Part shown: positions 10,061 through 64,000 of the stretch, piece by piece
How the letters are laid out: each line of letters opens with the position of its first letter
Position numbering within the stretch: the first letter of the stretch is position 1
Source of the DNA: Prorocentrum cordatum
Lineage: Eukaryota > Sar > Dinophyceae > Prorocentrales > Prorocentraceae
Length of the DNA: 64,000 nt
NCBI GenBank assembly: GCA_963575745.1
Contig: CAUYUJ010020607.1
Coordinates: 88,501 to 152,500, forward strand
Direction: 5' to 3'
The notes under the pieces: model-generated
What the model saw: only the letters and a program-made list of their open reading frames with translations
What the model was told of the DNA's origin: nothing
Database searches by the model: none
Made by a program: the position numbers and the translations under genes

Positions 10061-10439
10061 AGTGTATTTCTCTATGGGGGAACAACATCGGGGGAAGGGA
10101 CGGGACCAGGACGTATTTTACGATGGATGGGGGCCTTAGGAGCGCGGGTCCGTAGTTTTGTGCGACGGATCGTGGCTATGGCAATGCGGACCAATATTGT
10201 TTTCCAATTGATCGTGGTTTTGGAACCGATTTTCTTTTACAAGGGAGAGTGACTGCGCGAGCGCGGATAGTTTATGTGCAAGGGATCGTGATTGCGCGAG
10301 CGCGAACCAATCGCATAGACGGATAGTGGCTTTGGGGGTGCGGGCCACAATTGTTGAGTCCACAGAGCGGGAGTCACGGTGTGCTCCCATAAGAAATTCG
10401 CACGCAGATTGTGCAAGTAGTGCGTTTTCGAGGTATGTT

Positions 10440-13300: not shown

Positions 13301-15240
13301 GAGCCTCACGAATGCCGTTCGCAGAATTCAATGCGCCCATATCACGTCATCACCTCTGTATAACGTGTCCCAGGCTACCCGTGCCCCGCATTGCGCAGGG
13401 GTTGGGTACGTCGCCAGGGTAATCTCTCAGGGCCACCTTGGCGCCCGACGGGGGGCAGGCGGTCATAGGAGCCAACATATGGCCTTTTGGGGTCCATGGG
13501 CCACGGAGTGCGTGCAGGGTGTGCCGAATCGGAGCTCCCTTGACCCGTCTGAAGGGTCAGCTGAGGGCCTCTGGGAGTCCATGAGACACGATATTCGCGA
13601 GGCGTCTACCGCATTGAGGCTCCCTTCACCGTGGATCGCCCATGGAGTTCCACGGGACATGGAACGGTTGAGTTCCCAAGGAGCCGTCTCAGGGGCCAGC
13701 AGGGCACCCGTGATGCACCAACTACATGAAGGGTGCGCCGAGTGGCTCTCAGGATAGTCTGCGTGCAACTCCCTAGTGTTTCATGTGCCTCGGAGACCTG
13801 GGGGCGCAGGAGCTGCGTGAGTGGGGTGTCGAATTGAGGCCCTCGTGGCCCTGGGGGCACAGACCATTTGCATGTTTTGCATGTCCCAGGATGACATACC
13901 AAGATTAGCGGACGGAATGCGCGAAACTCTTTTTAGCACACATTTACTCATGCATCTCGCCATCCTCCGTGTCATCATCATTTTCGCATCTACCCTCTTG
14001 GGTCAACACGGCTGGGGCCCGCAGAGGGCCAGCCGAATTCGGTGGCCCCCTTGCGGGCCCTCGCCGTGTTAGACTTCGAGACAAGCTTATGATATTCAGG
14101 ATGATGGAGAAGAGTGAGGATGCGTACGTAAAGGCATGCTAGGAGCGGCTTCGCGCATTCAGCCGGCCAACTCCATTAGTCCTCAGGGGGGCACGTGGAA
14201 AATACAAGTGAAATGTCCCCCCATCTCTCGGCCCACGCGCGTGACAGCTCCTGGGATACGTCAAACACACAAGCGAGATGCAGCCTCTGGGCTGCTAGAG
14301 CCTGATTTCGTTACACCTCTCACGCATTTTCTGTCTGGCAATGTTCTGCGACGCGTGCAAATGCGAGTGAGCAACCCCTTATGGCTACGAAACTTCCATC
14401 TCGGCACGCCTCTCACGCATCTCGTCTGAGACACGTGAAACTACGAGAAACTACGAGTGATCTGCGCTCCGAGGGCCACGAATAGCTCAATCCTACACTC
14501 CCCTCGCGCATTTCTTTCCCACACTCTACTGGGGCACGTGCAGATACGCGTGATCTGCGCTCTCAGACTCTTGGGACACGTACGCAACTAGTGATTTGAA
14601 CCTCGAGGCTCTTGGGCGACGTACAAATAAGAGTGAATGTTCTTCCATTTCGATGGAACCTCAATTCGGCACACCCCTCACGCACTTCGTGAATGTTGGG
14701 CGCTCAGCTGGCCCCCGTGAAGGCTCTTTGGAACCTCAATTCGGCACACCCCTCATGCACGTCGTGCCCTATTCCCAAAGGGCCTTTAGCTGGCCTCCAA
14801 GACCGCTTAAACCCCAAAGGGGCGGAAGTACGCCCCAAAGAAAATTGCAACAGTTGGTCCCGACCCTCGTCGAAGCAGTATTCACAATACCCCCTGATGG
14901 GAAGATCGGCGTGCAAGCTTTCCCCGGGGGAAATTCGCACGCAGATTTCACATTTTGTGGGTCTTTAGTATGGCTTCGACGTGGGTCGGTACCGCTCGTT
15001 ACAACTGTTCCCGGGCCATCTTAGCGTCCCTGGGGAAGGGGGGGGGGGGCAGGCGGCTTTAGGATCCAACAGATGGCCTCTGGGGTCCATGGGCCACGAA
15101 GTGCGTGAGGGGTGCGCCAAGTCGAGGCTCCTCTGAACAGTCTGAAGGATCAGCCGAGTGCCCCTGGGAGTCCATGGCGCACGGCGTGCGTACGGGTTTG
15201 CTCCGAGTTGAGACTCCGTTCGGCCGTCTTGAGGGCCGGC
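13300..15240. repeat. Degenerate spacer with loose 100-bp similarity units
   Basis: Phrases such as TTCGGCACACCCCTCACGCA and CTGGGAGTCCATG recur (about 13555 and 15130; 14395; 14660; 14740). This suggests an old, decayed tandem or dispersed repeat. No gene recognised. Confidence 0.4.
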
Positions 15241-36029: not shown

Positions 36030-36715
36030 GGTCCCTCTTGAAGAGCTCTTGGGACCACTCTTGGGCGCTCTTGGGGCCGTCTTGGGGCTCTCTTGGGCCT
36101 CTCTTGCGGCGTCTTGGGGGCCTCTTGGCGGTCCCGGGGGCCTGTTGGAGCGTCTCGGGGAGCCTTTTGGGGCCTCCTGGGGGTCTCTTGGGGGCCTCTT
36201 GGAGGCCTCTTGGGCGCCTCTTGGGGCCTCCTGGGGCCCTCTTGAGGCGCTCTTGGGAGCATGGGGAGTGCTCTTGGGGCCATCTTGGAGGACATCGATC
36301 AAACAAGAGGGGAGCATTAATTAGCGTTTCCACTCGGGAGCCGCCTCTTGGGGCGCTCTTGGGGCGCTCTTGGAGCGCTCTGGGGCGCTCTTGGGGCCGT
36401 CTTGGGGTTCTCTTGAGCATCTCTTGGGCTCTCTTGGCCCATCTTGGAGCCATCTTGAGGCCTCGGATGGCCATCGGAAGCGAAAAGGCGAGAAATCAAA
36501 ACACATTGATTTTCCAAATGTTTTGGACGGGGTGTGTCCTCTGCGGGGCTTCCTGGGGTAGCTATTTGGCCATTCGGAGCCGTCTAGGAGCGGTCTTTTG
36601 GGTCTCTTGGCGCATCTTGGGGGCAATCTTGAGGCATCTTGAGATATCTTGAGCCATCTTGGAGGTAATCTTGGGCTGTCCCAAGCGCTCTTGGAGCCAT
36701 CTTAATCAGTGCCCC
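36030..36715 (+). repeat. Dispersed CTTGGGG-type repeat block 14, with junction module
   Basis: Forward units throughout. At 36277-36324 it carries GGGGCCATCTTGGAGGACAT, CGATCAAACAAG and TTAATTAGCG. The block ends at about 36690-36716 with CCATCTTAATCAGTGCCCCC, directly abutting the 3' end of the LINE. Confidence 0.8.
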
Positions 36716-36724
36716 CCCAAGCAA

Positions 36725-38910
36725 GCACGCAAAATGCTGAGTACGAAACGCACATGACCACATAGCCACTATCACGTGGTATCGCAATACTTGCTGACTG
36801 CGCCACGCCATGCCGTGGCCGAAGAAATTGTGTCCTGCCAGTACTTCCTGGGGCCACGCTGCTCGTGGTCGCCCTTTCTTTCTCTTGGTGGGAGGGGGGA
36901 GGAGGAGGGAGGACAAGGGCTGGAACATTGCGCAACACACAGCGTCGTCATCTGGCTTTCTGGCGATGTGACCAAGAAAAAGAAGCTGTCTACGGAGGAG
37001 CGGGCTGCTAAGCGGGCGGGCGCCAGCCCGTTGAAGCACGGTTTCGTTCGAGATTCTGCTGATTTGCGAGTGGGGAATGCGCAACAACTTGCGCAGACAT
37101 CGCGCCTGGAATGTGCCCAAACGACACATTTCGTGCTTGTTAAGATGGGAAGTGTGCATACAGTGCAACAGCTTACTTAAAATCAAAAGTCTGAATATTC
37201 TTCTGCTGCGTGAGAGTCGAATGGCTCCATACCCTGGCCAATTTGTCCAAATCTGCGGCTGCAGCTCCTAGGCGGCGAGACAACTCTGAACCTATTTTGC
37301 CATCGTCGCTAGTCAAACTACCTAAATAAGCTATGCTTCCCTTCTGTGGGATTGGGGTGCCGTCTGGCTGGAGAATGCATACGTCGGCTCCTACAGCCAA
37401 GGGTTCTAGCTGGAGCCAATTAAGCTGTAAACCGTACTGTTGCCCCATACGTTGCACGGCATGCATGTGCGCACCGGCTGATTCGCAGGAGGTGGCTAGC
37501 AAAAATGTGTCGTCTGCGTATACAAGCTCGTTCACATGCATGCTCTTATTCAGATAAGGATCCGCCTGTCTATTTGCATCGCGCAACAATGTTGTCATCA
37601 ATGTTGCTAACAAGAATGGGGAGAGCGGACAACCCTGACCAATGCCGAACGCTTGTGGATGCTCTTCCGATGTTTTCCCAGCGTCGCGGACAGAAAAAGT
37701 ACGATCTGTGTATATGGCGCGCACAATTTGTATGAGGTGGGTGGTGACGCCGAATTGCTCCAACGAGAGGCATAACGCATCGGGCGACACACTGTCAAAT
37801 GCCTTCGCCCAGTCCAAAGCCAGCAAAACTAGGCGCTCGCTTTTTTCTGCTCAAGTACGTTCAAGCAAATGCCGAACGAGGAGGATCGCGTCCGCTGTCC
37901 CGCGCTTGCTCTTGAAACCGAATTGGATGCTCCAGCTGCCTTCAGACGGTTTAAAGGAATTGTCGCGAACATCTTATACCCAATCGAAATCAAGCTAATT
38001 GGGAGATAATTTTCACAGTTTGCAACATCACTTTTTTTGAATATAGCCCTGACCAGCGCCTTGCGCAATGCGTCAGGGACCACACGTTCTTCCAAGCACT
38101 CTTTGCACAATGACACCGCCCATCTGCAGGCAGGGGCCCCTGGAGTGCAAATCGATTTCCTTAACTCGCCTGGAACTCGTCTGCGCCCGCGGTCTTTTCC
38201 CCTCTTCAGTTCGGCAGCCGCTGCCAACACCTCGTCTTCGGTGAGGGGATCACACGACACAGGTAATGTAGGACCCAAGCTGTCTGTGAATTCGGCGACT
38301 GTCGTCGGCTGAACAGCCCATTGAACTTGGGCGAGATACTGTGCCAGAGTGTCGGCGCGCTGGTCCGACTCCACGATTTCTCCGCTCGAGTTCGCGAGCC
38401 GGCCTTGCTTCGAGGCTACGCCTTTCCGGAGCTGCCGGATCGGCGCCCCTTCCCCCGTGGCGAGGCTGCTCTCCAAGCACTGCGACTATCTGATTTCACA
38501 GATGCCCAGACCTGCCTGGCGAGCTCGCACTCCTCCTCATGCGACCCCTGCTCGCGAGCGGCGTTGCGCTTTTCGATGAGCGCAAGGGTGCCCGATGAGA
38601 TCCAAGGCCTCCTGGGCAGCAGCTTCGTCTCAGGAAGAACGCGAACGGCGGCGAAGGAGGAAGCTTGCATCATCCGTTCATTCAAATGCTGGGCGGACTC
38701 GACGACGGCATCGTCGCCATCCGAGCCCATCTGCTCGCAAAAGGCTTCGGCAAACGAGTTCGCAACGTTCGGGTCCCGCGGAACAGAATGGTCTTTCCGC
38801 TTCTTGCCAGCCCTCGGCTCTGTCCGGGGGATGTCGATCAAGACGCGGGCTTGCACAAGGAAGTGGTGCGATGCCGACGCCGCGGCGCGGTCGCTCCAGA
38901 CGCGTTGCAC
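36725..38910 (-). pseudogene. LINE reverse transcriptase with C-terminal domain
   Basis: The linker (38910-38420) has SSGTLALIEKRNAAREQGSH. The fingers follow at 38476-37829: VPDALRKALVRAIFKKSDVA and NYLPISLISIGYKMFA. The palm at 37826-37173 carries motif A ALDWAKAFDSV (37788-37820), motif B GIGQGCPLSP (37617-37646) and the catalytic YADD (37509-37520), then YLGSLTSDDGKIGSEL. The C-terminal part (37186-36730) has CLRKLLRIPHSQISRISN, LLFLGHIARKPDDD and KKGRPRAAW. All catalytic residues are present. The frame changes at about 37830 (in an A6 run on the minus strand) and at about 37180, so the product is broken unless those are sequencing errors. It would prime cDNA synthesis at the nicked target. 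Confidence 0.85.
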
Positions 38911-47985: not shown

Positions 47986-48394
47986 TTTTTGAATTCAAGA
48001 GCCCCCCCGGGGTTCGTACTTTGTTTTTTGTCAAGGAAAGTCTTCCTGCTCAAACTGGCCCCCTGGCCCCCGGGTTACAACAACAGCGGCTCCCGCCGGA
48101 GACTTCCTCACAATTTAGCCAAGACCCCCGCTCCCGCCCGAGATTTCTTCGCATGTTATTCAAGAATCGCGCTCTCGCTTGGGATTTCCTTACGATTTAT
48201 TCAGGAATCGCTCCTCCTGCGCTGTGGAGTCGCGCTCTCGCTGGAGACTTGCTTGCAATCTACTGAAGAATAGCGCCCTTGCGTTGGAATTTCTTGCAAT
48301 TTACTCCAGCGCCGCGCTCCCGACACCCAGGCACCCAGGAGTCGCGCTCACGCTAAGGACTCCTTCACATATTACCTGGGAATCGGGATCTCGC

Positions 48395-49140
48395 TGCCCT
48401 TCGTGGCCCCGTTGCAGCCCTTCGTGGCCCCCTCGCGTTGTTTCGTGGCCCCGTTGCAGCCCTTCGTTGCCCCCTCGCTTTGTTTTGTGGCTCCGTTGCA
48501 GCCCCTCGTGGCCCCCTCGCTGCCCTTCGTGGCCCCGTTGCAGCCCTTCGTGGCCCCGTTGCAGCGCTTCGTGGCCCCCTCGCTGCCCTTCGTGGCCCCG
48601 TTGCAGCCCTTCGTGGCCCCGTTGCAGCGCTTCGTGGCCCCGTTGCAGCGCTTCGTGGCCCCCTCGCTGCCCGTCGTGGCCCCGTTGCAGCCCTTCGTGG
48701 CCCCTTCGCTTTATTTCGTGGCCCCATATCCCCCGGTCGTTCGCGCCCGTGGTGGTCCCATATGCATGCCCTTCGTGGCCCCGCTGTCGCCCTTCGTGGC
48801 CCCCATCGCTGCCCTTCGTGTCCCCGTTGCTGCCCTCAGTGGCCCCGTCCACACCCTCCGCGGCCCAACATACGTATGCCCTTCGTGGCCCCTGCTCGTT
48901 CGCGCCCGTTGTGGCCCCATGTGCATGCCCTTCGTGACCCCGCTGTCGCCGTTTGTGGCCCCCTCATTGTCCTACGTGGCCCAGGTGCTACCCTCAGTGG
49001 CCCCATCGTTGCCCTTTGTGGCCCCGCATTATCTGCACTTCGTGGCCCCCGCTCGTTCGCGCTCTTCGTGGCCCCATACGCATTCCCTTCGTGTCCCCGC
49101 TGTCGCCCTTCGAGGCCTTCTTCGTGTCCTTCGTGGCTCT
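48395..49140 (+). repeat. CCTTCGTGGCCCCGTTGCAG minisatellite
   Basis: 20-22 bp units, each with TTCGTGGCCCC, regular in the first 300 bp and degenerate afterwards. All frames are open (Ala-Leu-Arg-Gly-Pro, Phe-Val-Ala-Pro). The pattern is a repeat, not a gene. Confidence 0.9.
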
Positions 49141-49159
49141 GCTGTCGTTCTCTCTCGCT

Positions 49160-49213
49160 CGCGCTTTTGCTCGTCGTCGTCGTCGCCGTCGCCGTCGTCG
49201 CCGTCGTCTTCGA

Positions 49214-49291
<78 letters not shown>

Positions 49292-49300
49292 GGTCGGTCC
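49160..49300 (+). repeat. (GTC)n microsatellite
   Basis: CGTCGTCGTC with CGC interruptions. The same tract in the second duplicate copy is at 63600-63777, with C-run insertions at 63658-63705. Confidence 0.95.
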
Positions 49301-49537
49301 CCTGTCCGTCCCTCTTGGGGTCGGGTCGACGGTCCGCGGCCGCCCCGCCGATCAGCGCTGCCGCTGGCCAGGCCGACGGTCCGCGGCCGCCCCGCCGCTT
49401 GCCGGGGCCCGGCCTGCAGGGAAGAAAGGTATACCCCCCAAAAGGGGTTCGATCGAAGACGAAAAGGGCGGGTATCGAGGGTTTGGGAAATTCGCGTTAT
49501 TCACACTCGAGCAGATAAGGGCGAACAGTCTTAAAAT

Positions 49538-49538
49538 G

Positions 49539-49586
<48 letters not shown>

Positions 49587-49640
49587 GAACATTATTACTT
49601 CTAAAGAATAATTATTGTTGGGACCCCTGGTGCACGACCC
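49538..49640 (+). repeat. (GTT)n tract with conserved flank, copy 2
   Basis: GTTGTT run to 49587, then ATTATTACTTCTAAAGAATA, ATTATTGTTGGGACCCCTGG. Same flank family as copies at 47.9 and 61.4 kb. Confidence 0.8.
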
Positions 49641-50113: not shown

Positions 50114-50323
50114 ATGGGCTCTCTGGGCAGCATTTGAGCGCGGGGAGAAGTCGCGCGAGCGTCGTGGCCCCTATTGGCTATCTTCTTGCTTGTCTCAAAT
50201 GCTGCGGGACGGCTATTCACGGCTGAGGCGGATCCCCACCCTGCGCGCCCGCGAGCGCGTTCTCGTCGCAGGTGAATGGGATTTGTCTCACGCGTGGCCG
50301 TCCCGCTGGCGGGATGCGTTTTT
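50114..50323 (+). repeat. Split direct repeat A1 (5' end of element)
   Basis: 210 bp, begins ATGGGCTCTCTGGGCAGC and ends GGCGGGATGCGTTTTT. It contains a perfect 12-bp inverted repeat (GCAGCATTTGAG at 50127-50138, CTCAAATGCTGC at 50194-50205), conserved in A2. CTCGTCGCAG|GTGAATGGG near 50270 resembles a splice acceptor. Confidence 0.9.
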
Positions 50324-50329
50324 CGCGCG

Positions 50330-50610
50330 CGTTCGCTTGGCCGCTCCGCCGCCTCTTTCTCCCGTCGCAGGTTCCCCCCCCCCCCTCCTCCCGCGCGCGC
50401 GTCGCTTGACCGCTCCGCCGCCTCTCTCTCCCGTCGCAGGTTCCCCCCCCCCCTCCTCCCGCGCGCGCGTTCGCTTGGCCGCTCCGCCGCCTCTCTCTCC
50501 CGTCGCAGGTTCCTCCCCTCGCCCCTCCTCCCGCGCGCGCGTTCGCTTGGCCGCTCCGCCGCCTCTCTCTCCCGTTGCAGGTTCCTCCCCTCCCCTCCTC
50601 CCCCCGCAGG
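50330..50610 (+). repeat. 69-bp tandem units in the element leader, 4 copies
   Basis: Each unit has GTTCGCTTGGCCGCTCCGCC, a CTCTCTCTCCCGTCGCAG tract, GGTTCC and a C-rich tail. The CCCGTCGCAG (or CCCGTTGCAG) ends are at 50370, 50439, 50508 and 50580, spaced 69, 69 and 72 bp. A pyrimidine tract followed by CAG|G is what a splice acceptor looks like, so these may be reiterated acceptors, or simply a tandem repeat. Confidence 0.85.
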
Positions 50611-50699
50611 TCCGCGCGCCTACTTCGTGGAGAGCACCTACGTCCCTCGTCGGTTTTGCGGCTCGAAGGTCAGGACACACATGAGTACGGGTCGTCCTG

Positions 50700-51270
50700 G
50701 GCCGAATGCCGACCCAGTGCGCAGTATGCCTGCGGATGCCGCATGCCGGCCGCTTGTCCCCTGCGCTGTACTGCAAGTGCGCGCCGTATGCTGGTCCCTT
50801 GTGCGCAGTATGCCTGCGGATGCCGTACGCCGGCAATCATTCCTCTGTGCAGTATGCCTGCAGCGTGTGCCGTATGCCGGCCATTGTGCGCAGTATGCCT
50901 GCGAATGCCGAATGCCGGCCCTGTACGCAGTATGCCTGCGATTGCTGCCTGTCAGCCCCTCTCCGCAGTATGCCTGCGCGTGCGGCTGTATGCCTGCAAG
51001 TGGGCGCCGTATGCCGGCCATTAAGCGCAGTATGCTTGCGAGTGCCGTATGCCGGCCCCCCCCATCGCGCAGTATGCCTGCGTGCGTTGCAGTATGCCTG
51101 CAAGTGTGTGCCGTATGCCGGCCCTTGTACGCAGTACGCCTGCGGTTGCCGTATGCCGGCCCAGTGCGCAGTATGCCTGCGGATGCTGCCTGTCAGCCCC
51201 GGTGCGCAGTATGCCTGCGGCGTGCGTTTGCCTGCCCTCTTGCGCTGGATGCCTGCGGGTTATGTCATGT
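50700..51270 (+). repeat. CAGTATGCCTGCGGATGCCG tandem units
   Basis: About a dozen units of roughly 35-45 bp with GCGCAGTATGCCTGCG and CCGTATGCCGGCC cores lie between the leader and the gag-like start. The apparent peptides (Arg-Ser-Met-Pro-Ala type) are repeat-derived. The array probably belongs to the 5' untranslated region. Confidence 0.85.
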
Positions 51271-51343
51271 GCAACCGCCAGCGCGCGATAAGGACGCCGA
51301 GGGGGATACGTGCACGGCGCTTTCCGACGCGCGCGCAGCATCC

Positions 51344-53131
51344 ATGGCGCTGGCTCGCTCAGACATCGTTGAGTTGCTTGGCGATCTGCCTGCTGGCGCA
51401 TTCGGCACCGACAAAAATGCCATCAGGGCGCGCGCGCGCGTCTCCGTGCGTCTACCGCGGGCATGAGCCCACTCGCAGCGGCGCGCAAGGCCGATTGGGT
51501 CCTCTTCGTCGCAGCGGCCAACGCGGCGGAGGGGGACGCATCGCCAGCTCCCGAGCTGGTGCTGTGCACCGCGGTCGCGCGCCTGATGGCCGAAGCGATC
51601 GGGGCGGTCCGCCCGATTGATTACTCGGATGCGGCCATGCGCGATATGTTGATTGCGGCCCTGAAGCCAGGCGCGAAGCCGTTTGCGGGCGATTCTTCCG
51701 CGGAGTGGCGCGATTTCGCGATTAAGCCGTGCCACATCAATATGGCGCTGCGGACACAGTCGCGAGCGATGGAAGCCTTCGGGCGGAAGGCCCCCGCCCC
51801 GTTGGTGCGCGAGGACGCGGGCCGCCGCACGGCGCGCCGCCAGGAGGGTCAGCAATCGGCCCCGGCGGAGGCGGCCGCCAAGCCCGCGGAGGAGACGACG
51901 CGGATTGCGGCGGCAATGGAAGAATACGTGAAGGCCAGCAAGGAATTGCTCGAAGAAAAGCGGGAGAAGCCGCTGGCGTTTGCCATGGAGGCGCGCCGCG
52001 TTTTCGCATGCGCGGGCGGCATTGTTCGGGGATACGCGCCTCGGCAGGACCGTGTGCGCGAGGTCTGGCTCGGCAAGTTCCCCCGTGAGGGATTGCCGAC
52101 CGAGGAGTCGATGCGCAAATTCGCGGCCGCGGGCCGGACGGCCCAGTCCCATGGCCGCTCGTACATTGGGAGCGCCGAGGGCGAGAGCCTGCAGGCTCCC
52201 TGCTCGGCGGCACGTGCAATGACAAGCTTCCGTTTCGCCGATTGCTCCGCGCGCAGGACCACTGCAAGCCCCAATGGGCGCGAATGCCGAAGCTGGACTC
52301 GGTGCCAGCGGGGGCGGGCTCGTGGCGCGATCGCGCGTCGGCCGTCACCGCGGCGAACCGCGCGGGTGCGGCCCTGGACCGAATGGATTTTCTCGGTTAT
52401 GCGCACTTCCAGGTCGCGCGCGACGCAGCGCAGCGCGCGCGCCCACGCGCGCCCCGTGGCGCGAGGCCCACGTAATGGAGTGGGGGCTTCGCTGCATCCT
52501 GTCCAAAGTGTTTGATCCCGTCGTGCTATTGGGATACATGTACCAGCTCGCGCGCGTGAGCGAGGAGCACGGGGGCGTCAAGGCGCGTCCGCGGAGCGGC
52601 GGGCCCGATGCCCAGGGAGCCGCGCGCGGGAGCCCGCGCCGCGTCCAGGTTTCCTACACGTACGATTTGCTTCTCCGCCAGAAAGTGGCGAAAGACCTGG
52701 AACACGGCGACGAGGATGCGACGGCCTCGTTCACTGCGTTGTCGTGGGACATTCTGCGCGCCGCCAAGGAGCGCAGCGCTTTTGAGTGGCCGCCGCCCTG
52801 GCATCGTGCATCGCGCTGCGCGCTGTAGGAGAGAGTCCAGCAGTCGGACCGCCAGGCGGCGTTCACCAAGGGCGGGGGCAAGAAAGGCGGCAACGACCGG
52901 CGCGACCAGGCGCGAGCCCGCGCGTGCGCGCCCCGCGAGCGCGAACACGCGTCGCGGCGCGCGAGGCGGCGAAGCCACGGACCCCGGTGAGCCCTGTCCT
53001 CCGCCAGCGCTCGCGCAGCCCCCGCCGCGATACCTTCAGCAAGAAGGGGAAAGGCCGGCAAGGGAGGGGCTCCCAAGGACGCGGGGAGCTCGTGGCACAA
53101 GCCTGAGCGAAAGGAGTCCTGGCGGTGGTGA
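51344..53131 (+). CDS. Gag-like protein of the retrotransposon, with introns
   Basis: Proposed start is the ATG at 51344 (MALARSDIVELLGDLPAGAF). Frame is kept if these segments are removed: 51428-51489, 52195-52256, 52413-52465, 52583-52648, 52769-52828 and 52910-52965 (donors GC, GC, GT, GC, GA, GC; all end AG). Joins then read, for example, GESLQ|DHCKPQWARMPK, DFLGYAHFQ|AHVMEWGLRC and RAAKERVQQSDRQAAFTKGG. The central part is helical and Glu/Lys-rich (EEYVKASKELLEEKREKP). The C-terminus is basic and Gly/Lys/Ser-Arg-rich (RQRSRSPRRD), fitting RNA binding. No CCHC knuckle is seen. The frame ends at TGA 53129-53131, unless a further intron (53086-53137) fuses it to the RT part. The Gag assignment rests on position and composition. 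Confidence 0.6.
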
Positions 53132-56100
53132 AGCCAGGGCGCCGGCGCTGTGCATGCTAATTATTCGCCCGCCCGAGGCGCGCTCCGCGCGCGCGCGCGC
53201 GCGCCCCCCCGCGGGGGCGCCGCGCCAGCCAGTGATGCAGACGACGGGGCCTCCCCATTGCACCCTGCCGACAGCGGTGAGGGCGCAGTGTGGCGCGGGC
53301 CGTCGCCCGAGGGGCAGGAGGCGCCGCCAGTGCGCCGCGCGCGAGACCGCCCCGCCCGCGGCGAGCGCAGCGCAGGACGCGGATGTTGATTCCGACGACG
53401 GCGCCGAAGGCGGGGGCGGCGACTTTTGCCCCCAGCAAATCCACGATGCCGGCCGGCTGCGCATTTGAAGAGGACCTTGCCCGCCACTCTACGGGGGCGG
53501 AGCCGCGAAGCGCGCGCGCAGATCAAAGCCGCCGTGGATGCGTTGCTCGACGATGAAGACAAGAGGGCGGGCATGAGCCCTCTTTGCCACGCCGCCCGGG
53601 CGGCGCACTTGCCGCGAGTCCGCGAGATAGCGCCGCTTGCGGGACCTGAGCGCGATGCGGCGGTGGCGGCGAGCCAGACGAGCGACGCACTCTTGCAAGA
53701 GAGGCGCGAGGCGGCGTTGCAATTTTGGCGAGAGCGCAAACGTGTGACGGCTTCAGAATGGAAGGCGCCGCCCGGCACGCCGCTACCGCGAAGCACCGGC
53801 GGAGAGCGCGGTCGGGCGAGGCACGCTATGCGAAGTTACCATGGCATGTGCGCTCCGTCCTTGGGCCTGACAAGAACTTGTTGCTTTTGGCCGAAATGAT
53901 GCAAGCTGCAGGGGTGACCAGCGACGCAGCGCGCGCGCGCGACAGCGGGGCGCGGCTCCGTGCTTGAGGCGTCCGACGAGAATTTGACGCGTGACTTGGA
54001 GCGGGGCTTCCCGCTAGTGGGGGTCCTGCCGCGCTCGGGCATGAACGCGCCCGTGACCCCCAAGGGAGCCGAATGCCCATCCGAGTTGCGCAGCCGAGCG
54101 GACACTTTGAACGCCGCCACCCTCGAGCGCGTGTCTCGGGATCTGGGGGCCGACGCGGAAGTCACCCAGATTTTGCATGATAAAGCATACGAAGAGGCGC
54201 GCGCCGCGCAAGCCAGCGGGGACAGTCGCCCATGCTGCGACGTCCGCGAGCGTGCAGGTGGCCGCGGGCCAGGCAGCGTGGGTCCGGTTGTCCGACCTGC
54301 CACGCGGGGCGGTGTTAAACCCGCGATTCCCTGTAGACGAGGGATGGCGCTGGAAGTTGGAAGAATGGATACGCAAGGAATGGCGCATTCGCCGCGGCAT
54401 GCACCGTCCCCTCCCCTGGGCGCCGCGCCGGGAGCCAACGCGTCCAGGTGCGCGCGATCGACGATTTCACTGCCACGGGCGTTAATGACTGCGCCGCCGC
54501 AGCCGAGAGGTGCAGGCGGGCCCTTTCCCCCCCCCCCCGCCCCTCGCGCGCGCTGTCCGCTCTCCCGTGTCGCCGCGACCGCGCGTAGGGTGGATTCTCT
54601 CGATGCTCTGGTCGAGCTGGCGCGGATCGCGGCCGCGGCCGGCACGCCGGTGCTGAGCAAAGAAGATTTCATCGGTGCTTACAAAACGTTGCCCGTGCGA
54701 GGCGCCGACCTCCCGTTGGCCCATTCGGTATGGGCCAAGGGAGCCCGCGAGGGCTACTGTCTGCAACTCTTGAGCTGCCCCTTCGGCGCCGTGGGCAGCG
54801 GATACGCTTGGGACCGCGTTGGGGCGGCGCTCCAGGCGCGAGGCGCGAGCGCCGCGGCGGCACGGCGAGCGCCCCGCGAGCGCGGCAGGCCATCCTTGCC
54901 AAGCTGTTCTCGCTCGCTTCGGGCCGATTCGTGGACGATCTGTTCCGGGCCGACGCGGACAGGGGGCCCGGCACGGGCGGCCCCCGCGATGCCGCAGAGG
55001 TCCTGAGGGCGGTCGTCGAAGACCTTTTGGGCTGGCGCCTGGACGCCGGCAAACGCGTTGTTGCCGAGCCGAGGGCCACTGTGCTCGGCGTCGACGCGGA
55101 AGTGCGCGGATCGGGCGATGAGCTCTCGTTAGTATTCGCGATCGGTGGCGACAAGCGCCACAAATGGATCCAAGAGATCGAGTGGGTGCTGGAGGCAGGG
55201 AGAATGTCGCCGGCGGCGGCATCAAAACTTGCCGGCAGACTCGGATGGGGCTCCTCTGCGGTGTTCGGCAGAGGCACGCCCAAGCTCCCGCGCGCGAGCG
55301 ACGCGCGCGCGAGAGCGACGGCAGGTGCCCGGGTATACCTCGCCCCGCTGTTCTGGCACGCGCAGCAGCGGGGATGGAGGTTGAAGTCGCGGCTCCGCGG
55401 GGCATTGGAATGGTGGCTGCGCTTCCTCCGGAGCGCGCCGGAACGAGCGGCGCCCCTGCGGGTGACCCCGGAGCGGCCACGCTACCTCGTCTATTCCGAC
55501 GCGACGGGCGGCGGCAGGCGACATACGCGCGCGCCTGTTTGGAACGGCGCCCGCATTGCCCGGCCCGCCCCGCCTCCGCAGGCTCGCGTGGGTCATCATT
55601 GGGCCCAGCGGTAAGCGCTATGCAGCGGCTGATGTGCCTTCGTCGATCAAGCGGTGGACGAAGCACCGCAAGACGCAGGCGGGGGCGCCCCGGCCACGCG
55701 TAGCCTGGCGGACAGCCCGCCGTGTTGCGAAAGGTCGCGGCATGGGAACTCGTCGCGGCCGTTTGCGCCTTGCATCATTTGCTCGCGACGCTGCGCGATG
55801 CGGAAATCGTGTTGTTTGTCGATTCGAAGGCGCGGCCGGGCGCGGGTCGCCGAGGTGCCCGTGCGATGCTCCGCTGACCGCGCCAGGCCGCGCTCGGGGT
55901 GCTCCTACGCGGGACCTCGCGCCAGGCAGATTATAACGCGCTCGTGGCAGATATTTGGTTCGCAGCAGCGACCGCGCGGTGCCTCCTGAGCGCGTGGTAT
56001 GTGCCATCCGCGCTCAACGTGGCAGACGCCCCTACGCGGCCCGCCACGAAGGCGGCCGCGATTGCGGCCATGCACCGCGATGGCTTCACTCGAGTGGCGT

Positions 56101-56147
56101 GGCCATGGCCCCGCGCGGCGCCCTGGCATTCGCGCGGGCATGCATAG
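53132..56147 (+). CDS. Reverse transcriptase / RNase H of the retrotransposon, with introns
   Basis: Candidate introns are 53178-53228, 53318-53375, 53765-53820, 53914-53968, 54197-54257, 54378-54447, 54510-54588, 54836-54888, 55274-55324, 55518-55581, 55679-55733 and 55830-55886, plus one unresolved near 53.44-53.52 kb. Removing them gives RDLERGFPLVGVLP, then LPRGAVLNPRFPVDEG, WIRK|VRAIDDFTATGVND, ER|VDSLDALVEL, motif A KEDFIGAYKTLPV (Asp 54665), WDRVGAALQ|AILAKLF and the catalytic FVDD (54928-54939). RNase H follows: YSDATGGG|RLAWVIIGP (Asp 55498), AWELVAAV (Glu 55746), VLFVDSK|AALG (Asp 55821) and VPSALNVADAPTR (Asp 56025), so all four acidic residues are present. SKLAGRLGWGSSAVFGR between the two domains is typical of DIRS. 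Stop at 56145-56147. No start codon could be fixed. Confidence 0.85.
54510..54588 (+). other. Candidate spliceosomal intron, GT-AG, 79 bp
   Basis: The best canonical example. The upstream exon ends GCC GAG AG, the intron starts GTGCAGGCGGG, contains a C10 run and an in-frame TAG, and ends CGCGTAG. The downstream exon starts G GTG GAT TCT. The join restores CAAAAERVDSLDALVELARI, which runs straight into RT motif A. Confidence 0.75.
55830..55886 (+). other. Candidate spliceosomal intron, GC-AG, 57 bp
   Basis: GAT TCG AAG|GCGCGGCCGGG ... CCGCGCCAG|GCC GCG CTC. The length is a multiple of three but it holds an in-frame TGA (55874-55876). Removing it gives the canonical RNase H stretch LFVDSKAALG. 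The AGGC(C)GCG sequence is repeated at both borders. Confidence 0.75.
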
Positions 56148-56240
56148 CAAGTAGCACAGGGCAATTTGTAGGGGGCGCAAAGGCTTGCGCGGCGAGCGCG
56201 TGACGACCAGGCCCGCCGCGAGAGGGGGCCCGCGGGCGCC

Positions 56241-58243
56241 ATGCTTGCGTGCTTGTCACACGCGTCGCGGTGGACGCCCGAAAATGATTCGCATCCGGTA
56301 GGCGCGGAAGCTCTGCAGTGTCTGACATCCATGCTCGCAGCCGAAGGAGCGGCGTATCCCCCCGACCTGTCCGGATTCACGGCGAAGGAGGCGAGGGAAG
56401 TGCTCCCGTGCCTCCGGGAGTGGCAAAGCGGCCCCCGAGGACGATGCAGCGGTATCGCTCTCCCAGGTCGAGCGCGCGCGCGCAACTCCGCCCCATCCGG
56501 CGGAGCAAGCAAGGCCGGCCGCCGCCCGCTGACCCGTGGGCGCGAAGGCGGCGGAAACGTTACTCGAGAAAGCGGCCAAGTGCCCGGCACCGGCACCGGG
56601 CTTGCGCGCGAAACGCCGGCCCGGCGGGGGTTTGACGCCTCAAGAAGCCCTCGCGTTGCTCTCAGCGGCAAGGCAGGCACGGCAGGCACCGCCGCGCGGC
56701 GCCACCGTCCTCGTGCGCCGCGCGCGGCGCGGAGGTACCAGCGCCGCCGATGCTGGCAGAGGCAATCCGCCAGCTGGCGAAACTCCAGGCTCCGCCCGCG
56801 ATATTCATAAGCGAAGGCGGCATTCCGCGGGAGGTGCGCGCGAGGCAGGACATCGGCGTGCGGCGGGTGCCAGGAACACCTCGTCGGCGCGCCGAGGAAT
56901 TGCGGGTGTCAGGAGCAGGACTGGAGTGCATGCGCCGCATCCAGATGGCCGCGCTGTGGCGAGAATTCCACGCGTGGAAGCTCTCGGCATACCCGTATGC
57001 CTCGGCGGTGGAGTTGTACGGCCAGGCGTGCGATGCGGCAGGCGTCCCGCCCTGGCCGCCGTGCGCCATCGCGCGGGACATGATGGTGGCGCTCTGTCGC
57101 CGCCCGGGGACCCTGTCGAACTATTTGCAGGCCATTCGCTCAGTCCTGCATCTGCTCCGCGCAGACACAGGGTCTTTGGCGGACGCGCGGGCCCTGGTAT
57201 TCGGTGCCCGAAAGGTACGGCCGCCGCGCGCGTCGGCCGCGAGCCCATGATATCGGCGGCAGGCGGAACCGCCTGGTGCGCAAAGATTTCGTGCGCGCGC
57301 CACGGCCGAAAACGTGCGCGCGATGTCGGATTGGCTGCGAGAGGCGCGGCCGCGCGCTCTTCGAACTAAGCGGCCTGCCGTGCGTGCCGGCCCGCGGGCC
57401 TGGCGTTTGGCAGATCGGACGCGGCGATATGGCCGACGCTTTCGTCATATGCTGGCAGTTCTGCTTGCGCTTCGGCTCCGAAGTAGTGGGGCTGAATGCG
57501 CCTGGGCATAGTGCCGTCTCGCTCCACGTAGACGAAGGAAAGCACCAGGTGCAGGTGCAATTCCGCCAGCGGAAGGGGAGAGTAGCTCCCGACCCGGCGG
57601 GCCGAGCGCGCGCGCGCGGCGGGGCGCGCCCCGGGCTCCCCGTATCGCGAGGTCTGGAGGGTATGCGTATGCCAGCTCCAGGGCAAACGATTGTGTGCGG
57701 TCTGCATCATTCGGCATTCGCTCCGGCCCGGCGAGCAGCTCCTGCCGGGCGTCTCTTACGTGGACGGGCTGGCTTGCGTCAAGCTCGCCGCTGCCCACCT
57801 CGGGCTCCATAGGGCATTGGAGTGGGGGACGCATTGCTTCAGGCGCGGCCGGGCCGACCAGGCATGGGCTCCCCTTGCCGTCCCCTGCCTACCCAGGGCC
57901 CGCGCGCAGTTCGTGTCTCTCGCACGCAGGCACTCCGCACCGGGGGGCCAGCAGCGCTGTTCTTCGAAGGGGGTTGGAGATCTGTGGCCGCGTTCGGGCA
58001 CTCCATTCCGACAGGGGGCACGGCCGCGCTGCCTGGGTCGCGAGGGCGCGGCGCTTGGCGGCGCACAGGTACCCGGCCGCAAAGACGCGAGCCATGGTGC
58101 TGGCGGCAGAAGCCGAGATCGCGCACTCCGATTCCGACGAGGCGCCGCCCTGCAGGCATCGGGGTCGGGGCTCTGCGGCGGCGCGTGGCGCGCAGGACGC
58201 GCCGATCGCCGCGGAAGCGGTGCAGGGGCCGCCCAGGCCGTGA
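56241..58243 (+). CDS. Tyrosine recombinase of the retrotransposon, with introns
   Basis: Candidate introns are 56467-56547, 56686-56734, 56834-56896, 57215-57262, 57344-57413, 57582-57651, 57862-57929 and 57998-58068 (GT, GC, GT, GT, GC, GT, GC, GC donors; all end AG). One frame change near 56.40-56.43 kb is unresolved. The core-binding part has MLAEAIRQLAKLQAPPAIF and MQAAL-type helices ending NYLQAIRSVLHLL. The catalytic part has the first Arg in CLRFGSEVVGL (57468), the His-x-x-Arg in GTHCFRRGRADQ (His 57832, Arg 57841), GGW in ALFFEGGWRSVAAFG and, only after the last intron is removed, Tyr 58070 directly after VAAFG. The tail is acidic (EIAHSDSDEAPP). This enzyme would integrate a circular cDNA. 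Stop at 58241-58243, 68 bp before repeat B1. The exact start is uncertain. Confidence 0.82.
57998..58068 (+). other. Candidate spliceosomal intron, GC-AG, 71 bp
   Basis: GCG TTC GG|GCACTCCATTC ... GGCGCACAG|G TAC CCG GCC. Without removal, the recombinase has no tyrosine after its GGW motif. With removal, Tyr 58070 follows VAAFG at the expected place and the tail continues in one frame to the stop. Confidence 0.7.
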
Positions 58244-58311
58244 GTCAAGCAGACCAGGCATCTGCGGTCTGCTTAGAGCGCGCTTGGGCGTCGTTCCGCC
58301 GAGCATGCATC

Positions 58312-58440
58312 GGGAGGCGTCGGCGAGGTTGCTCGGCTCCGCGACGCCGACTCGCGCTCACCCCACCGCCTGGCCTGGGCCTGCGCCAGTCGACGGTTGT
58401 GCCCTGCGTTAGCGCGGGCCCAGCCTCGACGCGACTTCTC
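58312..58440 (+). repeat. Split direct repeat B1
   Basis: 129 bp from GGGAGGCGTCGGCGAGG to GACGCGACTTCTC. It differs from B2 by about one base (CGCTCACCCC versus CGCTCGCCCC) and joins A2 without a gap. Confidence 0.9.
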
Positions 58441-58650
58441 ATGGGCGCTCTGGGCAGCATTTGAGCGCGGGGAGAAGTCGCGCGAGCGTCGTGGCCTCTA
58501 TTGGCTATTTTCTTGCTTGTCTCAAATGCTGCGGGACGGCTGTTCACGGCTGAGGCGGATCCCCACCCTGCGCGCCCGCGAGCGCGTTCTCGTCGCAGGT
58601 GAATGGGATTTGTCTCACGCGTGGCCGTCCCGCTGGCGGGATGCGTTTTT
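58441..58650 (+). repeat. Split direct repeat A2
   Basis: 210 bp from ATGGGCGCTCTGGGCAGC to GGGATGCGTTTTT, matching A1 with about four substitutions and no indels. The 12-bp inverted arms are at 58454-58465 and 58521-58532. Confidence 0.9.
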
Positions 58651-58741
58651 CCCCGCCCGCCCGACCCTGCTGCGCGAGCGCGCTGGCGTCGCAGTGGCTG
58701 CTAGTTGTGTCGAGGCTGGGCTGGCCCAGCGCCAGGCTTGG

Positions 58742-58870
58742 GGGAGGCGTCGGCGAGGTTGCTCGGCTCCGCGACGCCGACTCGCGCTCGCCCCACCGCC
58801 TGGCCTGGGCCTGCGCCAGTCGACGGTTGTGCCCTGCGTTAGCGCGGGCCCAGCCTCGACGCGACTTCTC
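58742..58870 (+). repeat. Split direct repeat B2 (3' end of element)
   Basis: 129 bp copy of B1, ending GCGACTTCTC. Flanking DNA (GCGCGCGCG) begins at 58871, followed by 230 bp without a recognised feature. Confidence 0.9.
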
Positions 58871-59235: not shown

Positions 59236-60330
59236 TCCATATCCTAAGATGGGGTTCTTGTTATGACTTGGACGCCTCGTACTCCCTCTCCCTCCTCCTC
59301 TTTCCTCCTCCCCTCCTCCTCTTTCCTCATACTCAGACTTACTCATACACAGACTTACTCATTCTCAGACCTACTCATACTCAGACCTACTCATACTCAG
59401 ACTTACTCACACTCATACATACTCATACACAGACTTACTCATACACAGACTTACTCACACCTAGACGTACTCATACACAGACTCACTCATCCCCAGACTT
59501 ACTCATACACAGTATTAGTCATACTCAGACTTACTCATACCCATACGTACACATACACAGACTTTCTCATACACAGACCTACTCATACCCAGACTTACTC
59601 ATACACAGACTTACTCATACACAGACTTACTCATACTCACCACCCCTAAGGGGAGCCGCCAGGGGTGTTTGCACGGGCTCGTTCGCGGCCATTTTGTGGG
59701 GATGTCTCAGGCGGTTTGCTTGTTTCTGGGCCCAACATCCTTCGCTTGGAGACCAGATTGTGAGGATGTTTCAGGCGGGGCGCTGGTTTCAGCACCCCTA
59801 AGGGGAGCCGCCAGGGGTGTTTGCACGGGCTCGTTCGCGGTCATTTTGTGGGGATGTCTCAGGCGGTTTGCTTGTTTCTGGGCCCAACATCCTTCGCTTT
59901 CGGAGCAGGTTTGGAGGATGTCTCGAGCGGGGCTTCAGCACCCCTAAGGGGAGCCGCCAGGGGTGTTTGCACGGGCTCGTTCGCGGCCATTTTGTGGGGA
60001 TGTCTCAGGCGGTTTGCTTGTTTCTGGGCCAAACATCCTTCGCTTGGAGAGCAGATTGTGAGGATGTCTCAGGCGGGGCGCTGGTTTCAGCACCCCTAAG
60101 GGGAGCCGCCAGGGGTGTTTGCACGGGCTCGTTCGCGGCCATTTTGTGGGGATGTCTCATGCGGTTTGCTTGTTTCTGGGCCCAACATCCTTCGCTTTCG
60201 GAGCAGATTTGGAGGATGTCTCGAGCGAGGCGCTCATTTTCACCCCCCAGGTGGGCCAGATTTTGAGGGTGTCTCGATCGGTTTGCTTGTTTTGGTGGCC
60301 AGGCTCGTGGCCCTAAGGGGAGCCGCCGAG
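59235..60330 (+). repeat. Paralogous block, copy 1
   Basis: In order: CTCCATATCCTAAG unique segment, CTCCTCCTCTTTCC tract (59280-59330), an ACTCATACACAGACTT minisatellite of about 12 bp units (59330-59640), then 152-bp tandem units. The same order recurs at 61445-62660. Confidence 0.85.
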
Positions 60331-60530
60331 GGGTGTTGCACGGTCCCGTTCGCGGCCGTTTTGTGGGGATGTCTCAGGCGGTTTGCCTGTTTGTCTTGCC
60401 AACATCCTTCGCTTTCGGAGCAGATTTGGAGGATGTCTCGAGCGATGCGCTCATTTTCACCCCCCAGGTGGGCCAGATTTTGAGGATGTCTCGATCGGTT
60501 TGCTTGTTTTGGTGGCCAGGCTCGTGGGCG
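59641..60530 (+). repeat. 152-bp tandem repeat, first cluster
   Basis: Units start at 59641, 59793, 59939 and 60091, with degenerate units after 60240. Each starts CACCCCTAAGGGGAGCCGCC and AGGGGTG (7-bp inverted arms CACCCCT / AGGGGTG), then has GCACGGGCTCGTTCGCGGCC and GGATGTCTCAGGCGG. Apparent peptides (MHGLVRGHFVGMSQAVCLFL) are repeat-derived. Confidence 0.95.
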
Positions 60531-61356: not shown

Positions 61357-61800
61357 TAACTGTTGTTGTTGTTGTTGTCGTTGAGTTCTCATTTCTGAAG
61401 AATTATTAATTATTATTGTTGATCCCCCCCACCGGTGCATACTGTTTTTCTCCATATCCTAAGGTGGGGTTCTTGTTATTACTTGGACGCCTCCTACTCC
61501 CTCTCCTGTTTCCTCCTCCTCTTTCCTCCTCCCCTCCTCCTCTTTCCTCATACTCAGACCTACTCATATTCAGACTTACTCATACTCAGACTTACTCATA
61601 CTCATACCTACTCATACTCAGACTTACTCACACTCAGACATACTCATACACAGACTTACTCATACACAGACTTACTCACACCCAGACGTACTCATACACA
61701 GACTTACTCATACCCAGACTTACTCATACACAGTATTACTCATACTCAGACTTACTCATACCCAGATTGTGAGGATGTCTAAGGCGGGGCGCTGGTTTCA
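61357..61800 (+). repeat. (GTT)n flank copy 4 and paralogous block, copy 2 (first part)
   Basis: A short GTTGTTGTT run, TTCTGAAGAATTATTAATTA, TTATTGTTGATCCCCCCCAC, then CTCCATATCCTAAGGTGGGG, the CCTCCTCTTTCC tract and the ACTCATACACAG minisatellite, as at 59.1-59.6 kb. Confidence 0.85.
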
Positions 61801-61801
61801 G

Positions 61802-62660
61802 CACCCCTAAGGGGAGCCGCCAGGGGTGGTTGCACGGGCTCGTTCGCGGCCATTTTGTGGGGATGTCTCAGGCGGTTTGCTTGTTTCTGGGCCCACCATC
61901 CTTCGCTTGGAGAGCAGATTGTGAGGATGTCTCAGGCGGGGCGCTGGTTTCAGCACCCCTAAGGGGAGCCGCCAGGGGTGGTTGCACGGTCTCGTTCGCG
62001 GCCATTTTGTGGGGATGTCTCAGGCGGTTTGCTTGTTTCTGGGCCCAACATCCTTCGCTTGGAGAGCAGATTGCGAGGATGTCTCAGGCGGGGCGCTGGT
62101 TTCAGCACCCCTAAGGGGAGCCGCCAGGTGTGGTTGCACGGGCTCGTTCGCGGCCATTGTGTGGGGATGTCTCAGGCGGTTTGCTTGTTTCTGGGCCCAA
62201 CATCCTTCGCTTGGAGAGCAGATTGTGAGGATGTCTCAGGCGGGGCGCTGTTTTCAGCACCCCTAAGGGGAGCCGCCAGGGGTGGTTGCACGGGCTCGTT
62301 CGCGGCCATTTTGTGGGGATGTCTCAGGCGGTTTGCCTGTTTCTGGGCCCAACATCCTTCGCTTTCGGAGCAGATTTGGAGGATGTCTCGAGCGAGGCGT
62401 TCATTTCAGCACCCCTAAGGGGAGCCGCCAGGGGTGTTTGCACGGGCTCGTTCGCGGCCATTTTGTGGGGATGTCTCAGGCGGTTTGCTTGTTTCCGGGC
62501 CCAACATCCTTCGCTTGGAGAGCAGTTTGTGAGGATGTCTCAGGCGGGGCGCTGGTTTCAGCACCCCTAAGGGGAGCCGCCAGGGGTGGTTGCACGGGCC
62601 CGTTCGCGGCCATTTTGTGGGGATGTCTCAGGCGGTTTGCTTGTTTCTGGGCCCAACATC
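61802..62660 (+). repeat. 152-bp tandem repeat, second cluster
   Basis: Unit starts at 61802, 61954, 62106, 62258, 62410 and 62562, exactly 152 bp apart, same consensus as the first cluster. The 62660-62990 stretch after it is unique apart from two copies of a CATATGGGGAGCTCCAC-like phrase. Confidence 0.95.
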
Positions 62661-62997
62661 TTTCGCTCTTACATATCCCACTGCCAACTATCCTACAACA
62701 TATGCACATGTGGGAAGCTCCACAGCTACCACGGGCTGAAAAGGGGAAGGCCTGGCAGCTGAGGAGGGGGGAATGAAGAGGAAGAGGCTCGCATTCAACC
62801 ATACTCAAAGCTCACTCTGACTCATACGCAATCACTCGCATTAGGGGTCACTCGTCTTCGTCGGCCCTGTCGCCCACGTGGACGCGCTATTGTAGTCGAC
62901 CGCTCATGAACAGACGCTCACCACGACATGACATAAAACATGAGATGCGCATATGGGGAGCTCCACGCAGTGAGTAGTTCTCAATCAAAGTGTGCCC

Positions 62998-63701
62998 CTC
63001 GACGCTCGCACCCTGTTTTCTGTCAAGGATAATCTTCCTGCTCAAACTGGCCCCCTGGCCCCCGGGTTACAACAACAACGGCTCCCGCCGGAGACTTCCT
63101 CACAATTTAGCCAGGACCCCCGCTCCCGCCCGAGACTTCCTCGCATTTTATTTAAGAGTCGCGCTCTCGCTGGGGATTTCTTACGATTTATTCAGGAATC
63201 GCTCCTCCTTCGCTGTGGAGTCGCGCTCTCGCTGGAGACTTGCTTGCAATTTACTGAAGAATGGCCTTGCGTTGGACTTCCTGCAATTTGCCCAAGCGCC
63301 GCGCTCCCGACACCCAGGCACCCAGGAGTCGCGCCCGTTGTGGCCCCATGTGCATGCCCTTCGTGGCCCCGCTGTCGCAATGTGTGTCCCCCTCATTGTC
63401 CTACGTGGCCCAGGTGCTACCCTCATTGGCCCCATAGTTGCCTTCTGTGGCCCCGCATTATTATCTGCACTTCGTAGCCCCCGCTCGTTCGCGCTCTTCG
63501 TGGCCCCATACGCATTCCCTTCGTGTCCCCGCTGTCGCCCTTCGTGGCCTACTTCGTGCCCTTCGTGGCCCTGCTGTCGTTCTTTCTCGCTCTCGCTTTC
63601 GCTCGTCGTCGCCGTCGTCGTCGTCGTCGCCGTCGTCTTCGACGGGGGGGTTTTTTCCAGCCCCCCCCCCCCCCCCGTTTCCCGCCCGCCCCCCCCCCCC
63701 C

Positions 63702-63777
<76 letters not shown>

Positions 63778-64000
63778 GGTCGGTCCCCTGTCCGTCCCTC
63801 TTGGGGTCGGGTCGGCGGTCCGCGGCCGCCCCGCCGATCAGCGCTGCCGCTGGCCAGGCCGACGGTCCGCGGCCGCCCCGCCGCTTGCCGGGGCCCGGCC
63901 TGCAGGGAAGAAAGGTATACCCCCCAAAAAGGGGTTCGATCGAAGACGAAGAGGGCGGGTATCGAGGGTTTGGGAAATACGCGTTATTGGACACTCGAGC
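62998..64000 (+). repeat. Segmental duplication, copy 2 (truncated by window end)
   Basis: Aligns with 48.02-49.51 kb, lacking the central minisatellite. It contains the (GTC)n tract and two long C runs (63658-63705) absent from copy 1. The window ends inside the shared GGGTTTGGGAAATACGCG segment. Confidence 0.85.

Follow-up and report, generated by a model that had tools for sequence, protein, structure and literature searches.

The window analyzed here, 64,000 nucleotides from Prorocentrum cordatum (assembly GCA_963575745.1, contig CAUYUJ010020607.1, positions 88,501 to 152,500 of the forward strand), appears to contain one nearly intact, recently inserted retroelement of the Ngaro type (DIRS order) at positions 50114-58870 (8,757 bp). 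Taken as a whole, we consider it probable that this element carries about 28 spliceosomal introns, that its proteins are made from spliced mRNA, and that it transposes by means of unspliced sense RNA. Retrotransposition is normally recognized by the introns lost when spliced RNA is copied, a process that should have erased the roughly 28 introns of this apparently recently moved element. These conclusions concern a single copy in a single window, with segments read as introns from sequence; statements on published work refer to passages of the papers cited. A preliminary description of the same DNA, whose interpretation is partly supported by the present analysis, covered positions 51344-58243, which are only the coding part of the element, and lacked its terminal repeats.

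Self-alignment of the window revealed split direct repeats in the order A1-ORFs-B1A2-B2 (ORFs, open reading frames), in which the end of B1 directly abuts the start of A2. Ngaro and PAT elements have split direct repeats arranged in this way (PMC4157794, PMC8547959). The internal repeats lie downstream of the tyrosine recombinase region, no methyltransferase was found, and all three reading regions (gag-like, reverse transcriptase [RT]/RNase H, and tyrosine recombinase) are on one strand. The parts of the element are as follows.

50114-50324, plus strand: A1, split direct repeat, left terminal part, 207/211 identical to 58441-58651
50325-51343, plus strand: 5′ leader, four 69-bp units followed by a 38-bp minisatellite, without codon periodicity
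51344-53106, plus strand: gag-like reading region, about 471 residues when spliced, stop TGA at 53104
53231-56147, plus strand: putative RT/RNase H (pol) reading region, about 731 residues when spliced, start codon unsettled, stop TAG at 56145
56241-58243, plus strand: putative tyrosine recombinase reading region, about 474 residues when spliced, assigned by motifs
58312-58440, plus strand: B1, internal repeat abutting A2, 128/129 identical to 58742-58870
58441-58651, plus strand: A2, internal repeat
58742-58870, plus strand: B2, right terminal repeat

Together, the A and B pairs differ at 5 of 340 bases (98-99% identity). Provided that each pair started out identical when the element inserted and has not undergone conversion since, this means that the insertion is recent, which agrees with the recent look noted in the preliminary description. 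The B1/A2 junction reads CTTCTC/ATGGGC, which is the expected B2/A1 joint of a circle, except for one nearby A1/A2 difference. The left flank ends in ttct and thus has a few bases in common with the B end. No target duplication is evident at the element ends, which would be expected if integration is carried out by a recombinase.

A hand-curated model of the reading regions contains 28 segments of 46-81 nt (mean 61 nt), which all end in AG and start with GC (18), GT (9), or GA (1). Twenty of these shift the frame, four are in frame and hold a stop (those starting at 52786, 55830, 56467, and 57215), and four are in frame and free of stops (52583, 53178, 55274, and 56834); the latter are optional and could be coding. 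AG precedes the donor in 19 of the 28 segments and G follows the acceptor in 24, with both (AG/G, the slash marking the junction) in 17. Boundaries were picked by eye across three frames with the consensus in mind, so the donor and AG/G counts lean toward the consensus and do not constitute a test. The density is approximately 5.4 segments per kb (28 in 5,203 bp), and 21 of the 28 lie in phase 0, matching the phases of AG/G sites within exons (30 of 48). The preliminary description had reported about 26 segments of 48-81 bp, several in frame, usually joining AG to G. That observation is confirmed and extended here; its order of donors and the AG ending are retained, whereas its donor counts (16 GC, 7 GT, and 3 GA) are revised. 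The individual segments are listed below as putative introns.

51428-51489, plus strand: intron 1, 62 nt, GC-AG, frame change
52133-52194, plus strand: intron 2, 62 nt, GC-AG, frame change; composition not distinct
52413-52465, plus strand: intron 3, 53 nt, GT-AG, frame change
52583-52648, plus strand: intron 4, 66 nt, GC-AG, in frame, optional; based on composition
52786-52833, plus strand: intron 5, 48 nt, GT-AG, holds a stop; composition not distinct
52910-52965, plus strand: intron 6, 56 nt, GC-AG, frame change
53178-53228, plus strand: intron 7, 51 nt, GC-AG, in frame, optional; based on composition; just before the first pol exon
53330-53375, plus strand: intron 8, 46 nt, GT-AG, frame change
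53448-53521, plus strand: intron 9, 74 nt, GC-AG, frame change; boundaries uncertain
53765-53820, plus strand: intron 10, 56 nt, GC-AG, frame change
53914-53968, plus strand: intron 11, 55 nt, GT-AG, frame change
54212-54272, plus strand: intron 12, 61 nt, GC-AG, frame change
54378-54447, plus strand: intron 13, 70 nt, GA-AG, frame change
54510-54588, plus strand: intron 14, 79 nt, GT-AG, frame change
54836-54888, plus strand: intron 15, 53 nt, GC-AG, frame change
55274-55324, plus strand: intron 16, 51 nt, GC-AG, in frame, optional; based on composition
55518-55581, plus strand: intron 17, 64 nt, GC-AG, frame change
55679-55733, plus strand: intron 18, 55 nt, GC-AG, frame change
55830-55886, plus strand: intron 19, 57 nt, GC-AG, holds a stop
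56391-56439, plus strand: intron 20, 49 nt, GC-AG, frame change; composition not distinct
56467-56547, plus strand: intron 21, 81 nt, GT-AG, holds a stop
56677-56734, plus strand: intron 22, 58 nt, GC-AG, frame change
56834-56896, plus strand: intron 23, 63 nt, GT-AG, in frame, optional; based on composition
57215-57262, plus strand: intron 24, 48 nt, GT-AG, holds a stop
57344-57413, plus strand: intron 25, 70 nt, GC-AG, frame change
57582-57651, plus strand: intron 26, 70 nt, GT-AG, frame change
57862-57929, plus strand: intron 27, 68 nt, GC-AG, frame change; rests on the recombinase motif
57998-58068, plus strand: intron 28, 71 nt, GC-AG, frame change; motif-based, its removal setting FG beside the candidate catalytic Y

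Introns 27 and 28 depend on the recombinase motif because another frame stays open there without splicing. When all segments are removed, 27 of the 29 exon pieces are fully open; the remaining two contain the intervals that separate the reading regions and have stops at 53104 (gag frame), 53129 (pol frame), 56145, and 56169. The reading regions themselves are free of stops, even though one would arise from 3.5% of single substitutions in their codons; in this respect the element is unlike a decayed copy. As for the gaps, 53104-53231 and 56145-56241 hold 6 and 15 loose short-intron candidates, respectively, that could bridge the gag-pol and pol-recombinase stops, and short introns bridging both would give a single polyprotein.

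A junction test was run on 27 of the 28 junctions (intron 7 was left out), with exon midpoints, next stops, and frames as inputs, the midpoints and frames being derived from our own exon model; every G[CTA]...AG pair 45-84 nt long was listed. Such loose pairs gave the right frame at 27 of 27 junctions, and each wrong frame at 27 of 27 as well. The agreement between segment length modulo three and frame change, put forward as evidence in the preliminary description, therefore carries no weight. With strict pairs (AG/G[CTA]...AG/G), in contrast, 21 of 27 junctions had a pair in the right frame, versus 6 and 7 for the wrong frames; at frame-changing junctions only, the numbers were 14 of 20 versus 4 and 5 (Fisher P 0.0006, wrong classes pooled). 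AG/G sites in exons are distributed over the codon phases as 30, 13, and 5 of 48 and hence favor codon boundaries, so that a share of 0.475 of the pairs would fall in the right frame by chance alone. The observed share was 38 of 59 (P 0.007, calculated for pairs that share sites and are not independent).

Composition separates the segments from the exons. The GC content per codon position is periodic in exons (0.699/0.539/0.767) and flat in the segments (0.815/0.794/0.787). When each segment was represented by whichever frame position was lowest in GC, a choice that favors coding, the average was 0.740, compared with 0.519 for exon stretches of like length, and 0 of 5,000 resamples of 28 stretches reached 0.740; individually, the segments at 52133, 52786, and 56391 were not distinct. 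Runs of (CG)n of at least 8 nt number 16 in 1,697 segment bases and 3 in 5,203 exon bases, and none of 2,000 random placements reached 16. A mini gene-finder yielded a score of 257 for the real strand, compared with 145 for the reverse strand, 76-131 for 15 of 15 shuffles, and 60-133 for three of four other 6.9-kb stretches. Thus, composition, frame, and consensus tests support the reading of the segments as probable introns. RNA structure was considered as a splicing signal and rejected, the mean z being −0.45 for the 28 introns and −0.32 for 28 exon controls.

Joining the exons rebuilds IDDF, FVDD, YSDATGGG-RLAW, VDSK-AALG, and VAAFG-Y, so the motif joins in the preliminary description were recovered. 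In the spliced middle region, IDDF is located at 54457, FVDD at 54928, YSDATGGG at 55492, VDSK at 55818, and NVADAPTR at 56016, and SKEDFIGAYKTLP occurs alongside IDDF and FVDD. The putative recombinase has R at 57468, HxxR at 57832, and W and Y inside 57969-58072, with a spliced spacing of R-98-H, HxxR, H-25-W, and H-33-Y, similar to the spacing in lambda integrase and XerD. These motifs suggest that the element encodes an RT, an RNase H, and a tyrosine recombinase with the corresponding activities. For the spliced gag, there was no Pfam match and no zinc finger, neither as a CCHC-like pattern nor as CxxC. The identification as a tyrosine-recombinase retrotransposon in the preliminary description is supported by split repeats, ORF order, and motifs and not by any profile or structure match.

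Several results weigh against the reading given at the outset. As to splicing, the fourth of the other 6.9-kb stretches, which is repeat-rich, scored 214 in the gene-finder, and the 28 introns as a group have no polypyrimidine tract. Automatic models 1 (26 introns), 2 (22 introns), and 3 (25 introns, with our codon table) shared both boundaries with 3, 8, and 12 introns of the curated model, respectively, and one boundary with 7, 4, and 4, and overlapped 20, 18, and 20 of the 28. With an overlap of 18-20, individual boundaries are provisional; the finding of numerous intron-like breaks is robust. As to the proteins, domain profiles run on the spliced translation, a check proposed in the preliminary description, gave RVT_1 (Pfam) at 12.7 bits against pol, below the cut-off of 29.6. 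No Pfam match to RNase H, recombinase, or methyltransferase was obtained for the spliced gag, pol, and recombinase pieces, which are very diverged, and searches for the recombinase in NCBIfam, PHROGs, and PDB returned weak unrelated matches only. The R..HxxR..W..Y pattern also appeared in one unspliced frame when stops were ignored, in 71 of 5,000 shuffles, and in four unspliced ORF stretches of the window, three of them outside the element; it therefore supports, and does not prove, a recombinase. Poor alignment with Pfam has been described by the authors for the RTs of Symbiodinium DIRS elements (PMC5890265). Further copies of the element were found neither in viral_contigs and genome_contigs nor in the rest of the window (blastn, tblastn). 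Finally, more than 90% of Symbiodinium DNMT genes, most of which lie inside LINE or DIRS elements, are described as intronless, in an annotation derived partly from intronless ab initio models (PMC5890265).

Since the insertion appears to be recent, 28 subsequent gains are implausible; the introns would then have arrived with the element, and the moving form would have been unspliced. An unspliced transposition template is thus the best reading left, and a predicted one. Proteins would be produced from spliced mRNA, after removal of about 28 spliceosomal introns with GC, GT, or rarely GA donors at mostly AG/G proto-splice sites, while full-length sense RNA escaping splicing would be reverse transcribed. 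The B1A2 block would restore the ends of the cDNA, and the recombinase would integrate the resulting circle. In the DIRS-1 model, RNA is converted to cDNA, internal repeats restore the ends, and a recombinase integrates the circle, parts of this being called unproven (PMC5633606). By analogy, the model could work equally with unspliced RNA. That the segments are spliced, and that the unspliced form is RNA rather than a DNA circle or antisense RNA, is what we infer from the features described above.

Tyrosine recombinases act on DNA circles, a point in favor of an element that moves as DNA, as a double-stranded circle excised and reintegrated by its recombinase. Alternatively, an antisense RNA template could hide the introns, as has been proposed for intron retention in Penelope (PMC3846280). 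Neither route is supported by evidence here; movement as DNA only would not keep A1/A2 and B1/B2 alike, and the regions for RT and RNase H have open frames and so are apparently in use. We regard these two routes together as unlikely.

A decayed copy, in which ordinary indels and low-complexity CG insertions mimic introns, is improbable. The loose pairs do mend any frame by chance (27 of 27), the CG runs found in many segments may have arisen by mutation, many boundaries fall at other positions in the automatic models, and an RT-element remnant in the same window (described below) looks decayed. Decay would, however, have to account for 20 frame changes without a single stop in any of the 29 exon pieces where they belong to a reading region, for a narrow length class shared by segments that lack a coding pattern, and for strict consensus pairs in the right frame.

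The introns could also postdate the insertion of this copy, for instance if introner-like elements invaded it while it was expressed or domesticated, and their survival through transposition would then need no explaining. Introners have been reported from dinoflagellates (PMC11453091, PMC10666404), the AG/G target pattern fits, and the age of the copy could be masked if A1 and A2 have undergone gene conversion; yet 5 differences in 340 repeat bases leave little time for 28 gains. Moreover, the introns are mutually dissimilar (mean local similarity 12.1, versus 11.9 when shuffled, the best score being 26 either way), and the duplications that flank them do not exceed in length those of 67 consensus-matched controls. 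Introner copies were rejected on these grounds, with the qualification that old, diverged introners could remain and that terminal inverted repeats were checked via folding only. The active intron gain raised in the preliminary description is therefore not upheld, the segments being alike in composition only, and we see just a slight chance that gain after insertion explains them. Removal of the segments from DNA, as with ciliate internal eliminated sequences having an AGG pointer, is very improbable: most segments do lie between AG and G, which form a short direct repeat, but GC/GT/GA donors with a fixed AG end indicate an intron class rather than pointers, and nothing in the window points to a ciliate.

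The 5′ leader may bear on how unspliced RNA could come to be the template. Of seven listed [CT]AGG sites, six read GCAG/G (50269, inside A1, and 50368, 50437, 50506, 50578, and 50607); the last five follow pyrimidine-rich stretches, which the cis introns as a group lack, and four sit in the 69-bp tandem units. These sites, at 50269-50610, are candidate trans-splice acceptors. Addition of a spliced leader to all mRNAs is described in PMC12014239. If the GCAG/G sites act as leader acceptors, every processed mRNA would lack A1 and could not be a replication template; only unprocessed RNA would be copied, introns would be gained and not purged, and the element would drift toward a host-like intron density. 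This intron ratchet is a tentative idea that we hold to be doubtful, and the mostly intronless retrotransposon DNMT genes of Symbiodinium argue against it as a general rule (PMC5890265). If leader trans-splicing is the cause, terminal-repeat elements are predicted to keep introns and LINEs are not. No spliced-leader relic, RNA family, or tRNA was found in the window. The 38-bp minisatellite of the leader (50680-51258; CGCAGTATGCCTGCG / CCGTATGCCGGCC) has no stop in the gag frame but lacks codon periodicity, and the leader was rejected as coding sequence, its GC content being flat across positions (0.684/0.676/0.681).

The window (GC approximately 60%) is rich in tandem repeats, and no host gene was recognized in nine ORFs scanned outside the element. 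An apparent RT-element remnant lies on the minus strand at 36584-38476, comprising three ORFs split by one stop and one frame change, with RVT_1 at 70.9 bits (37173-37826). Positions 48180-49600 and 62990-64000 have similar translations, each with a CCTTCGTGGCCCC minisatellite, and represent a dispersed repeat, possibly another element. To the right of the Ngaro-type element, satellite arrays with periods of 152 bp (59637-60527) and 217 bp (61763-62667) show 90-94% matches, and a 101-bp tandem array of about 27 copies at 10374-13302 is open for 962 codons on the minus strand.

The preference of the element for GC over GT donors, together with AG/G, matches core dinoflagellate splicing. In P. 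cordatum, donors are GC (51.4%), GT (24.7%), and GA (23.8%), acceptors are AGG in 79.7% of cases, and genome GC is 59.7% (PMC10666404). GA donors are thus rarer in the element (1 of 28). The element introns are also tiny compared with the P. cordatum mean of 4,709 bp, whereas their density is of the same order as that of P. cordatum genes, which have 9.8 introns per 2.8 kb of coding sequence, or 3.5 per kb (PMC10666404).

Among open-licence matches listed, we identified no published intron-bearing DIRS or Ngaro element, which is not proof of absence; the word “intron” does not occur in the main text of a DIRS1-like overview (PMC3266345), and passages of PMC12477816, PMC5718144, and PMC3212892 contain nothing on introns within DIRS elements. 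Membership in PAT, Toc, or SymbioDIRS, which requires a Dam-like or Dnmt3 methyltransferase, was rejected since none was found in the spliced, very diverged pieces, as was membership in Pat1-like elements, which requires a Gag zinc finger. SymbioDIRS-Dnmt3 elements of Symbiodinium, another dinoflagellate, share the A-coding-B-A-B repeats, an RT and tyrosine recombinase (both putative in the present element), and an RT beyond the reach of Pfam, and differ in carrying a Dnmt3 domain, in contrast to the present element, in which no DNMT was found, and in the intronless state of most Symbiodinium DNMT genes (PMC5890265). Dinoflagellate introners (Amoebophrya, Polarella, Prorocentrum) likewise show noncanonical donors and many introns, whereas the element introns have no shared family or long duplications. 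The closest likeness is to Ngaro, with the same A1-ORFs-B1A2-B2 order, putative RT/RNase H followed by the putative recombinase on one strand, and no methyltransferase found (PMC4157794, PMC8547959); the differences are the approximately 28 introns and a putative RT and recombinase too diverged for Pfam. If our reading is true, the use of intronlessness as a marker of retrocopies would be upset, and the element would offer a system in which the gain and retention of introns can be tested. Penelope-like elements, which have another class of RT and a GIY-YIG endonuclease, also spread with introns, are the known case of intron retention, and have been set apart from all other retrotransposon types (PMC3846280); the present element would extend unspliced spread to an order other than Penelope.

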